Shown here: piece by piece, positions 4,678 to 53,897 of the stretch
Layout of the letters: the number at the start of each line of letters is the position of its first letter
Numbering within the stretch: the stretch's first letter is position 1
NCBI RefSeq assembly: GCF_015326965.1
Contig: NZ_CP017659.1
Location: forward strand, 3,972,501-4,036,500
Source of the DNA: Paenibacillus sp. JZ16
Lineage (GTDB): Bacteria; Bacillota; Bacilli; Paenibacillales; Paenibacillaceae
Length of the DNA stretch: 64,000 nt
Reading direction: 5' to 3'
The notes under the pieces: model-generated
Database searches by the model: none
The model's input: the letters and a program-made list of their open reading frames with translations, nothing else
Told to the model about the DNA's origin: nothing
Made by a program: the position numbers and the translations under genes

Positions 4678-5592
4678 TTAGAAAATATCCATGCTCAAAT
4701 ACCGCTCTCCCGTATCCGGAGCAATGCAGACAACCCGCTTCCCTTCCCCCAGCCGCTTCGCTACGCGAAGAGCAGCGAATACCGATGCGCCGGAGGACGG
4801 CCCTACCAGAATGCCTTCCCTGCGAGCCAAGTCCCGCACCGTTTGCAACGCATCCTCGTCGGCGATCTGGATGATCTCATCATATACGCCCGTATTCAGA
4901 ATCTTCGGTACAAAGCCCGGGCTCGTGCCCACCAGCTTGTGCGGTCCAGGCTGACCGCCGGAGAGCACGGGCGAGCCCTTCGGCTCGACTACCGCGATGT
5001 GCAGGTCCGGCAAGGACTTTCGCAGCTCTTCCCCGGTTCCGGTTACGGTACCGCCCGTTCCCGCCGTCGCCACGAAGGCGTCAAGCCGACCTTCCATCTG
5101 CTCCAATATTTCCGGCGCCGTAGTCACCCGGTGAATGTCCGGGTTGGCCGCATTCTCGAACTGCTGCGGAATGAAGCTTCCGGGAATCTGCTCCTTGAGC
5201 TCCAGCGCCTTGGAAATCGAACCCGGCATGCGTTCGCTGCTCGGTGTCAGCACGACCTCCGCACCGTACGCCTTCAATATATTGATCCGTTCCTTGGACA
5301 TATTGTCCGGCATAATCAGGATAGCCCGGTAACCCTTGGCGGCCGCAATCATCGCCAGGCCAATGCCGGTATTCCCGCTTGTCGGCTCAATAATGGTACC
5401 GCCCGGCTGGAGGAGTCCTTGTTCCTCGGCGGTATGAATCAGGTTGTACGCCGCGCGGTCCTTCACGCTGCCGGAAGGATTGAATCTCTCAAGCTTTACA
5501 TAGACATCCGCAGCTCCTGGAGGCACTAGGCGCTGAAGTTTCACCATGGGCGTCCGACCGATCATATCCACCACACTGTTATAAATCTCCAT
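4678..5592 (-). CDS. cysK: Cysteine synthase (O-acetylserine sulfhydrylase)
   Basis: A PLP enzyme of about 304 residues that makes L-cysteine from O-acetylserine and sulfide in the cytoplasm. NPSGSVKDRAAYN (about residue 37) holds the Schiff-base Lys, PTSGNTGIGLA is the substrate loop, TAGTGGTVTGTG the phosphate-binding loop, and the C-terminus TGERYLS is typical of CysK. A longer frame begins at 5640, but the family consensus starts MEIYNSVVDMIG, and AAGGAG precedes the ATG at 5592 by 12 nt. Monocistronic, terminating at 4645-4672. Non-coding repeat array A lies directly upstream. A CysM or cystathionine-synthase-like role is less likely but not excluded by sequence alone. Confidence 0.93.
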   Translation of the reverse strand: MEIYNSVVDMIGRTPMVKLQRLVPPGAADVYVKLERFNPSGSVKDRAAYNLIHTAEEQGLLQPGGTIIEPTSGNTGIGLAMIAAAKGYRAILIMPDNMSKERINILKAYGAEVVLTPSSERMPGSISKALELKEQIPGSFIPQQFENAANPDIHRVTTAPEILEQMEGRLDAFVATAGTGGTVTGTGEELRKSLPDLHIAVVEPKGSPVLSGGQPGPHKLVGTSPGFVPKILNTGVYDEIIQIADEDALQTVRDLARREGILVGPSSGASVFAALRVAKRLGEGKRVVCIAPDTGERYLSMDIF

Positions 5593-5638
5593 GATGTTGA
5601 AACTCTCCTTTATATATGAAGTGAAATCATTCTCCACC

Positions 5639-5860
5639 AATCCGAATTTCTATAAAGACAATAAGCTTACTCGGATTATAACAAAAACGTTCTCCGGTGT
5701 ATATTCCCAGATGACAGACCGCGTTTAGAGGAAGTTTTTCTTGCGATATCAGGAAGCTACAAGCTTGAAAGTTTATACTTTCTGGTATCTTAACAAAAAC
5801 GTCATTCGACGTACATTCTCAGATGACAGACCGCGTTTAGTTGATGTATTTCTCGCCGGC
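5639..5860 (+). repeat. Constant-segment/variable-hairpin repeat array, locus A
   Basis: Two copies of the core GACAGACCGCGTTTAG (5713-5728 and 5825-5840, period 112 bp) alternate with hairpins: AATCCGA/TCGGATT (5639-5645/5671-5677) and GATATCAG/CTGGTATC (5745-5752/5782-5789, one G-U pair). After each hairpin comes TAACAAAAACGT, and before the second comes GGAAGTTTTTCTTGC. The same layout occurs at 10728-10950 and, inverted, at 53618-53897. No coding potential. It fills the gap between cysK and lipL. Confidence 0.8.
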
Positions 5861-5991
5861 CAGGCTGGCCGCTTCCGTATGAATTTATGGTATGCTATCC
5901 AAAGAAAATAACGATCGGGCTCCCCCTCGGAAGACAAATTTCTTCCATGGTCTTGTGCACGATCCGCATGTTAGAGGAGGCGCAAGAAAGC

Positions 5992-6843
5992 GTGAATATT
6001 CCGCTGTCACTACCTGAAGATCAACCCGTTCTGCTGCTCGACCGGACCCATGATTTAGCGCACCAGGACGTACTGTACCATTTTGCGCTGGACGAGCTCC
6101 TGTGCAGGCTGACCGGAGATGGCGGGCCTGCCATCTGTCATCTGTGGCGGCATCCGCGCGCCTTTGTGATGGGCGTGCGCGACAGCCGCCTCCCTTATGC
6201 GCCGCAAGGGGAAGCCATGCTTCGCTCTCTCGGCTATGACACCGCCGTCCGCCATTCGGGCGGTGCTGCCGTACCCTTGGACGCTGGCGTGGTGAACCTG
6301 TCCCTCATCCTCCCCTTTTCCTCTGCGGGACCGGCACCTGACTTTCATCAGGACTTTGAAATCATGGTGGAGCTGATCCGGGAAGCCCTCCGCGGCACCG
6401 GGCAGAACGTAGATACCGGCGAAATTGCCGGTGCCTTCTGTCCGGGAACGTTCGATTTAAGCATAGGCGGCCTTAAATTCTGCGGTATTGCCCAGCGGCG
6501 GCAACGTAAAGCGTTCATTATCCAAGCTTTTATCATCGCCGAAGGGTCAGGCAGCGAGCGCGCCCGGCTGGTTCGTTCCTTCTATGATATTGCCGCTGCG
6601 GGAGCAGACCCCAAGCAGTATCCTCTGGTAGAAGCCAACAGCACCGCCAGTCTTGAAGAGCTTACGAGTATCGGCACCGGCCAGAACGCCGTGCACACGT
6701 TTATAGCCGCGGTAAAAGAGGTCATTCGCAGCTGGCAGTCAGGCAAGGAGCTGACAGAGGCCGCTTCCAGGTTTACGATGCCAGGCTCTGAGGAGATTCG
6801 TAATATGGCTGAGCAAATGCGGCAGCGGTATAACCTTAATTAA
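5992..6843 (+). CDS. lipL: Octanoyl-[GcvH]:protein N-octanoyltransferase (LipL-like)
   Basis: A protein of about 283 residues of the LplA/LipB/BirA fold. HLWRHPRAFVMGVRDSRLP and RHSGGAAVPLDAGVVN are the lipoyl-ligase landmarks; GAFCPGTFDLSIGGLKFCGI contains the Cys that in Bacillus LipL forms the octanoyl thioester, and IAQRR follows as expected. LipL moves octanoate from GcvH to E2 subunits in lipoate synthesis. A longer frame begins at 5887, but AGAGGAGG (5973-5980) precedes GTG 5992 by 11 nt, and the resulting length matches B. subtilis LipL (about 281). Repeat array A lies upstream and a strong terminator downstream. A lipoate-protein ligase is the alternative. Confidence 0.85.
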   Translation: MNIPLSLPEDQPVLLLDRTHDLAHQDVLYHFALDELLCRLTGDGGPAICHLWRHPRAFVMGVRDSRLPYAPQGEAMLRSLGYDTAVRHSGGAAVPLDAGVVNLSLILPFSSAGPAPDFHQDFEIMVELIREALRGTGQNVDTGEIAGAFCPGTFDLSIGGLKFCGIAQRRQRKAFIIQAFIIAEGSGSERARLVRSFYDIAAAGADPKQYPLVEANSTASLEELTSIGTGQNAVHTFIAAVKEVIRSWQSGKELTEAASRFTMPGSEEIRNMAEQMRQRYNLN

Positions 6844-10727: not shown

Positions 10728-10950
10728 CAAGAAAAAACGACTATCGACTTTCATTCTAGAGAAGACAGACCGCGTTTAGATGTTGTTTTTCTTGTGATAT
10801 CAGGCAGGCCATGCTCTAAGTTTAAGACTTCTGATATCTTAAAGAAACACGTCTATTAACGGACTTTACACAATACAGACTGCGATTAGAGGAAGTTTTT
10901 CTTGCGATTATAGAATTTGTTCAGTTTCAAATCTTATCATTCTATAATCT
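10728..10950 (+). repeat. Constant-segment/variable-hairpin repeat array, locus B
   Basis: Core GACAGACCGCGTTTAG at 10764-10779 and diverged ACAGACTGCGATTAG at 10875-10889 (period 110). Hairpins: GATATCAG/CTGATATC (10796-10803/10831-10838) and a perfect 11-bp GATTATAGAAT/ATTCTATAATC (10906-10916/10939-10949). Both left arms follow TTTTTCTTG(C/T). The second hairpin ends 7 nt before the GGGAGG ribosome site of the downstream regulator gene, so it probably lies in that gene's 5' UTR. Confidence 0.8.
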
Positions 10951-53617: not shown

Positions 53618-53897
53618 TACGTCTGGCTTCTGTGGAGGTTCAGCGATGTATATTTTTCTTTAGATTATCGAAGCCCTATGTTTTCAGCGATGCTGAACCA
53701 TTCGATAATCGCAAGAAAAATTTCCTCTTAATGCGGTCTGGCTTCTGTGGAGATTCAGCGATGTATATTTTTCTTTAGATTATCGAAGCCCTACGTTTTC
53801 AGCGAAGCTGAACCATTCGATAATCGCAAGAAAAATTTCCTCTTAATGCGGTCTGTCTTCTCTGAAGGTTCTTCGATGTATATTTTTCTTATGGATT
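53618..53897 (-). repeat. Constant-segment/variable-hairpin repeat array, locus C
   Basis: Two nearly identical 115-bp tandem units plus a partial third, inverted relative to loci A and B. The core (minus) is CAGACCGCATTAAGAGG, at 53727-53740 and 53842-53855 on the plus strand. Each unit has GATTATCGAA/TTCGATAATC (53663-53672/53701-53710 and 53778-53787/53816-53825), extended by TTTTTCTT/AAGAAAAA across a two-base mismatch, giving an 18-bp stem. The units differ at about three positions. No coding frame is convincing. Confidence 0.85.

Follow-up and report, generated by a model that had tools for sequence, protein, structure and literature searches.

In the genome of Paenibacillus sp. JZ16, a short repeat combines constant segments with hairpins whose two arms differ between copies yet remain complementary to each other. 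The initial annotation of this locus read the co-changing arms as a sign of selection for structure, either as RNA or as a DNA cruciform. This raises the question of whether the paired arms belong to a structure that resides at its site or to DNA that moves between sites. Here, we followed the repeat from a stretch of 64,000 nucleotides (positions 3,972,501 to 4,036,500 of contig NZ_CP017659.1, hereafter the window) to the remainder of the source genome and to the genomes of relatives.

Repeat units in the window

The constant core GACAGACCGCGTTTAG is present as had been claimed for the first of three loci (locus A), with two copies that start at 5713 and 5825 and are thus spaced by 112 bp (Table 1). 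Two hairpins had been placed between the constants. One of them, with the arms GATATCAG (5745-5752) and CTGGTATC (5782-5789), is indeed part of the repeat, whereas the other (AATCCGA/TCGGATT, 5639-5677) lies outside it. The latter hairpin lies in the leader of the neighbouring PALP-fold (cysteine synthase-like) gene, and the nhmmer profile match at locus A begins only at 5679-5680. When up to two mismatches are allowed, the 14-mer CAGACCGCGTTTAG has seven matches in the window compared to 0.36 expected, a number that was reached in 0 of 100 shuffles. Six of these matches lie within loci A, B and C and one lies elsewhere (19906).

Locus A comprises a full-length unit and a second unit that consists of the core and the right-end hairpin and lacks the variable outer hairpin. 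The right-end hairpin of this second unit is the sole terminator-like site detected within 5500-6000, and the outer stem of the first unit is the same stem that covaries in the 44 monomers described below. At locus B, two subtypes are found within one array. A clean terminator junction is absent at all three loci: loci A and C are truncated on the terminator side, and at locus B the T-tract is present but the hairpin is not. The three loci of the window are old copies.

Table 1. Repeat features in the window, with the IS200-type elements used for comparison in the last line; strands of units refer to the active sense.
Feature	Position in window	Strand	Evidence
Locus A, unit 1, full-length	5679..5793	-	nhmmer match L090:2442-2555, offset +3238
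Locus A, unit 1, right-end hairpin	5687-5700	-	
Locus A, unit 1, constant core GACAGACCGCGTTTAG, copy 1	5713..5728	+	
Locus A, unit 1, conserved A-rich segment (GTTTTTCTT on +, AAGAAAAAC on -)	5734..5742	-	near-invariant alignment columns
Locus A, unit 1, variable outer hairpin (arms GATATCAG/CTGGTATC on +)	5745..5789	-	sequence
Locus A, unit 2, truncated	5791..5858	-	nhmmer match L090:2553-2620, model 1-68 of 115
Locus A, unit 2, right-end hairpin, ACGTCGAATGACGT then TTTTGTTAAG, terminator-like	5799..5812	-	
Locus A, unit 2, constant core GACAGACCGCGTTTAG, copy 2	5825-5840		
Locus B, unit 1, GATATCAG subtype	10729..10842	-	nhmmer match L091:2401-2510, from model position 5, offset +8332
Locus B, unit 2, GATTATAGAAT subtype	10842..10950	-	nhmmer match L091:2510-2618
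Locus C, third unit, truncated at would-be terminator side	53621..53661	+	by eye; no profile match listed
Locus C, unit 2	53662..53775	+	nhmmer match L092:2393-2506
Locus C, unit 1, GATTATCGAA subtype	53777..53891	+	nhmmer match L092:2508-2622, offset +51269
IS200-type (tnpA-only) elements behind intrinsic terminators and oriented like them			L472-L475, L479, L483, L521-L539

A genome-wide family in the Paenibacillaceae

Beyond the window, the repeat is a genome-wide family of a unit of about 110 bp. In the source genome (7.42 Mb, one contig), a 29-base pattern that joins the core to TTTTTCTTG gave 46 matches with at most three mismatches and none for the reversed control, and blastn gave 56 matches. 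The matches group into about 46 clusters, with as many as five full copies in tandem. We fetched 5 kb around each cluster and observed, based on a crude ORF map, that the clusters are mostly intergenic. Six further right-end matches beyond the clusters are decayed, deleted or truncated copies, and none of them is an autonomous parent. Of the 46 clusters, 36 are co-oriented with replication, a bias that can be explained by gene orientation. The units that we read are about 110 bp long and carry no gene.

The initial annotation had staked its reading on further copies in relatives, and many were found. With a covariance model, which it had proposed to build, we detected the unit, whose family is absent from Rfam, in 103 of 295 sampled genomes of the Paenibacillaceae (E <= 1e-4); these matches span 9 of 19 genera. 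Furthermore, blastn detected the unit in 43 of 100 genomes of the same genus, and an exact-pattern scan of named genomes returned 109 stretches. Among the 80 of these 109 loci that were listed, all are from Paenibacillus except one from Fontibacillus. The unit occurs at fourteen places on an 897-kb plasmid of P. cellulositrophicus (L359, NZ_CP045296.1), where the gene table, which is incomplete, has no feature under the best match. Phage records contained no match to the repeat, and neither did viral contigs when scanned with the exact pattern.

The statement that no named family fits agrees with Rfam, which has no match in the window at the gathering score; relaxing the threshold gave only matches far below that score. 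A riboswitch or another known RNA was rejected for this lack of an Rfam match. Among the literature matches listed, which are mostly without subscription papers, none treats the repeat family or the landing of IS200 behind terminators.

Structure and covariation

For the outer stem, we confirmed that the arms change together with their complement. Three arm subtypes exist, namely GATATCAG, GAGATAAG and GATTATAGAAT/GATTATCGAA, each with its complement. We counted covariation on a hand-set structure in 44 aligned monomers. The arms are complementary across the copies, with 89.1% of the outer-stem cells paired, and five of the nine pairs have changes on both sides. In the right-end stem, 80.5% of the cells are paired, and near-end hairpins are thus present at both ends of the unit (outer stem and right-end stem). 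The three inner pairs of the CCGC/GCGG stem are only 69% paired.

As a check on significance, which had also been proposed, we compared the whole structure to shuffled and slid versions. It scores 0.220 compared to 0.106 when shuffled and at most 0.107 when slid, with 85.2% of the cells paired (78.3% shuffled) and a double change in 63 cells (21.5 shuffled). Pairs with at least one double change number 12, which is not special, as slid versions reach 13. As the copies share descent and also supplied the structure, the covariation supports mainly the outer stem. RNAalifold predicted no pairs on the whole alignment, probably through misalignment of the subtypes.

The small hairpin and the right-end hairpin of the unit differ in sequence. 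AAGAAAAAC sits 5' of the small hairpin and is fully complementary to the GTTTTTCTT end of the unit. TAAGA occurs at the two ends of the unit as an inverted repeat of 5 bp, and no longer terminal inverted repeat was seen.

Some copies deviate from this plan. In the source genome, the copy at L088 (near 3720035) has about 60 extra bases in the loop of the outer hairpin, with outer arms that are still largely complementary. Copies with internal deletions were found at L348, L142 and L347, and the L348 copy, which belongs to genome G150, keeps both extreme ends within about 46 bp. At L307 and other loci, weak opposite-strand profile matches (20-25 bits) occur at an offset of about half a unit; taken as a whole, the unit is partly palindromic.

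Landing behind intrinsic terminators

When the repeat is read on the strand opposite to that of the initial annotation, many units begin right after a terminator hairpin and its T-tract. On this active strand, the right end of the unit is a terminator-like hairpin followed by TTTTTCTTA. The left border is often fixed at the T-tract of the terminator, and the other border is arbitrary. The terminator lies on the upstream and not on the downstream side of the units. Insertion occurs 3' of a short T-rich sequence that ends in TTA, rather than of one exact word, and its orientation is fixed.

We quantified the landing for the first units of the arrays, pooled over all fetched loci. A landing score of at least 18 is reached by 110 of 234 units, compared to 1 downstream, 3 shuffled and 2 random controls, each out of 234. 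Likewise, the upstream folding energy is -16 kcal/mol or lower for 116 of the 234 units, compared to 13 of 234 random and 9 of 234 downstream positions. In 205 of the 234, the 10 nt that straddle the left junction, and thereby take in some bases of the aligned end, contain six T or more.

Next to the pooled counts, we compared sets of genomes, using array-first units with intact ends, a score of at least 14 and, as control, random positions to which a T-tract was added. With this test, 28 of 30 units in G150 score as adjacent to a terminator (control 26/165), as are 6 of 6 in G299 (1/30), 23 of 40 in the source genome (20/230) and 41 of 73 in the named genomes (47/420). The intact-ended units below the cut-off amount to 17 of 40 in the source genome and 32 of 73 in the named genomes; the score counts ungapped stems only and some terminators are thus missed, and true exceptions also exist, loci A, B and C of the window being examples. 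We conclude that the unit lands behind intrinsic terminators, in the orientation of the terminator, far above chance. The right end of the unit was itself classed as terminator-like, next to the terminator of the host at a locus of G150 and alone in the window.

Mobility and arrays

Orthologous loci differ in their number of units. At L103, the source genome has three units, G032 and G070 have one each, G069 has one that is internally deleted, and G033, G024 and G052 have none. At L087, the source genome again has three, G032, G069 and G070 have one each, G033 has two that differ in subtype, and none are present in G024 and G052. The terminator is intact in the empty orthologous sites, and the unit is therefore mobile. 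The junction that fits best joins a T-tract with a final TTA to AGATATC..., and at the other end TTTTTCTTA is followed by host DNA. The TA found at both borders is the same pattern as a duplicated TA would give.

In G150, 33 full units are found at 30 places, with an identity between places of 0.941 (median) and up to 1.000; these copies are recent. Between separate loci of the source genome, identity is 94.6% for the closest pair and 72.7% in the median; activity there is therefore older than in G150.

Units also accumulate in place. One array of the family (L082) consists of five full units, and another (L306, G036:C30:306656-307566) of eight near-identical full units and a partial one at a spacing of about 110 bp, whereas L087 and L091 are arrays of mixed subtypes. 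The arrays agree with units inserting behind copies already in place, although like units can also be gained or lost by recombination.

The initial reading of a structure under selection, as RNA or as DNA cruciform, thus stands in part. The arms do change together; a structure that resides at its site is not what we found, as the empty sites, the landing rule and the arrays point to mobile DNA. The paired arms are best explained as the hairpin ends of a single-strand transposon rather than as a resident regulatory RNA.

IS200-type insertion sequences at the same kind of site

Loci with Y1 transposases were fetched first as a control for the mobiliser and then deliberately for the landing test. 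Elements with a TnpA of the HxHML type are found immediately behind terminators, with a score of at least 14 for 25 of 29 distinct left ends; left ends were located by the insertion sequence's own motif, and three loci with a lost left end (L484, L487 and L488) were excluded. Of the left ends below this score, three have, by eye, a hairpin that is longer or imperfect, and the fourth lies behind the right end of another IS200. In an upstream scan that does not use the motif, a score of at least 18 is reached by 23 of 31 IS200-type elements compared to 3 of 23 elements with other Y1 types. Two of the IS200-type proteins carry the NCBIfam label IS200/IS605 family transposase.

On their left side, the IS200-type elements have an A-rich segment and a hairpin; on their right side, a hairpin is joined to a T-rich end such as TTTTGATT. 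This order of parts is common to the IS200-type elements and the repeat unit. In G007 (L528), a full repeat unit (99.2 bits) lies directly behind the right end of an IS200. A repeat fragment was seen by eye at the same position in G071 (L522), with a weak profile match of 8.7 bits. Furthermore, one IS200 lies directly behind the right end of another (L531), and a 37-bp derivative that consists of ends only lies directly behind the right end of a full IS200 (L228). IS200 right ends also act as targets, and tandem landing occurs in autonomous elements too. The source genome retains only a remnant, a C-terminal part that scores 48.6 bits with the IS200 transposase model (cut-off 55).

Proposed mechanism and alternative explanations

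We consider it rather likely that the repeat is a non-autonomous mobile DNA element with the single-strand (HUH transposase) design of IS200/IS605. Read 5' to 3' on the active strand, the host terminator hairpin and a T-tract ending in TTA would be followed by the first cut, the variable outer hairpin, AAGAAAAAC, the small hairpin (CCGC..GCGG), a spacer, the right-end hairpin ACGTCgataGACGT, TTTTTCTTA, the second cut and an arbitrary flank. AAGAAAAAC, being complementary to the T-rich right end, may act as the guide. An IS200-type TnpA supplied in trans would cut after a T-rich TTA that lies exposed next to a hairpin, in the target as well as in the right end of the unit. This right end is again a hairpin with a T-tract and could offer a fresh target to the next copy; units would thus stack in rows because each carries its own terminator-like hairpin.

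Mobilisation in trans by an IS200-type TnpA is probable by analogy. A profile search of 80 Y1 and RT loci detected no autonomous copy with the same ends (two matches, E 0.45 and 0.78). In G150, none of the 37 right-end matches read has a gene between two ends, one of these matches being at a contig end. We tested the association with element richness for Y1 and RVT_1, with element-rich genomes defined by eight or more blastn matches listed and per-genome counts being lower bounds. Y1 transposases are not enriched in element-rich genomes (11/23 compared to 45/77 others, Fisher p 0.47) and are absent from 12 of them. G150 has one long IS200 TnpA frame, by eye without a start codon at the expected place. 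A resident HUH transposase as the current driver was rejected, as it shows no association with element richness. We infer the mobiliser from target, orientation and end design rather than from co-occurrence with Y1 genes, and it is by the likeness of ends and target that an IS200-type TnpA is retained as the candidate.

Landing behind terminators is also known from group IIC introns, which insert behind intrinsic terminators in the same orientation. The unit could thus be a retrotransposed RNA of the active strand that terminates itself and is inserted behind terminators by the reverse transcriptase of a group II (IIC-like) intron in trans. The terminator-like right end would agree with this, as would the copies without the 5' part, and G150, the genome with the burst, has a long RT frame and therefore stays compatible. 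However, RVT_1 has no match in the source genome nor in six other element-rich genomes, and RT is not associated with element richness (16/23 rich genomes compared to 57/77). Furthermore, units are truncated on both sides, and across the 42 RT loci examined, no match of the unit profile was stronger than E 0.45. We therefore regard retrotransposition as improbable.

We find it similarly hard to credit that the unit is a MITE of a DDE transposon (IS630/Tc1-like) with a TA target duplication and a merely secondary preference for terminators. On the strand of the initial annotation, TA is common next to the left end and frequent next to the other one too, but it is equally explained if target and end both finish in TTA. 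The TAAGA common to both ends would also agree with a MITE, but no terminal inverted repeat beyond these 5 bp was seen, and the orientation is fixed relative to the target. A resident element, that is, a structured RNA or transcription-control element that serves the host at the ends of operons and forms arrays by unequal recombination, would account for the covarying arms, the position behind terminators and the terminator-like hairpin of the unit. It is nevertheless quite unlikely, given that orthologous sites are empty in species that keep both genes and terminators, that near-identical copies occur at unrelated sites in G150 and that different subtypes are found at one orthologous locus.

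Beyond the single-strand mobile element that we prefer, we tentatively suggest that IS200-type HUH transposases of the Paenibacillaceae might target the DNA hairpin and T-tract of intrinsic terminators and that the repeat might be a minimal satellite that copies this target. If so, each insertion would preserve the stop signal of the host, add another one and seed its own arrays, and the three co-varying hairpin subtypes would be addresses for different transposases. The single-strand transposon and its satellite would then choose terminators as a safe harbour, where genes stay intact and terminated. A testable rule for the landing sites of such elements follows from the repeat, which also offers an explanation of how bacterial repeat arrays can grow in place and makes the hairpin plus T-tract a candidate target code for IS200-type transposases.

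Comparison with known systems

Group IIC introns share with the repeat the landing site and the orientation of insertion. Unlike these introns, the repeat has neither ribozyme nor RT and has no Rfam match. REP/BIME sequences with TnpA_REP, in the sections of PMC8266576 and PMC6006769 that describe them, are like the repeat in having many short intergenic hairpin copies that are probably mobilised by Y1 transposases and sometimes form mosaics. In contrast to REP/BIME, the repeat is a unit of three hairpins and about 110 bp. GTAG/GTGG is absent before the three hairpins in the consensus, and because this GTAG foot is absent, we do not file the repeat as REP.

PATEs (palindrome-associated transposable elements) are described for Haloquadratum (PMC3119063) and Halanaerobium (PMC7290912) and are, in the available text of these papers, short and transposase-free, with palindromes near the ends and without inverted repeats. 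The repeat, too, is short, with near-terminal palindromes and no inverted repeats seen beyond the 5 bp shared by its ends. The palindromes of PATEs are tied by similarity to the ends of resident IS605-type elements in the available text of PMC3119063 and PMC7290912, whereas no IS605-type parent was found for those of the repeat (nothing better than E 0.45 in 80 Y1/RT loci), so that the likeness is one of plan only. Because this relation to a resident insertion sequence was tested and not found, we do not file the repeat as PATE. The word 'tandem' does not occur in the available text of the Halanaerobium paper (PMC7290912), where 'terminator' appears in one passage, on IS hairpins; in that of the Haloquadratum paper (PMC3119063), 'terminator' appears once.

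According to the sections of PMC6006769 on IS200/IS605 elements, TnpA binds a hairpin at either end of the element, the target interacts with a guide located immediately 5' of the foot of the hairpin, and insertion takes place in the lagging-strand template. Unlike the autonomous members, the repeat is without a Y1 HUH TnpA gene, and no sequence similarity was found between the repeat and the IS200/IS605 loci examined. Compared to the IS200 group (Y1 HUH TnpA; NCBIfam NF033573), it carries no gene, measures about 110 bp, has an extra variable outer hairpin and ends in TTTTTCTTA instead of TTTTGATT. Like this group, the repeat has hairpins near its ends and no long inverted repeats, and inserts 3' of a short T-rich sequence in a fixed orientation. 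Like the IS200 copies examined in Paenibacillaceae, it lands behind intrinsic terminators and gives examples of tandem copies behind a right end. The repeat probably works like an IS200/IS605 single-strand element.
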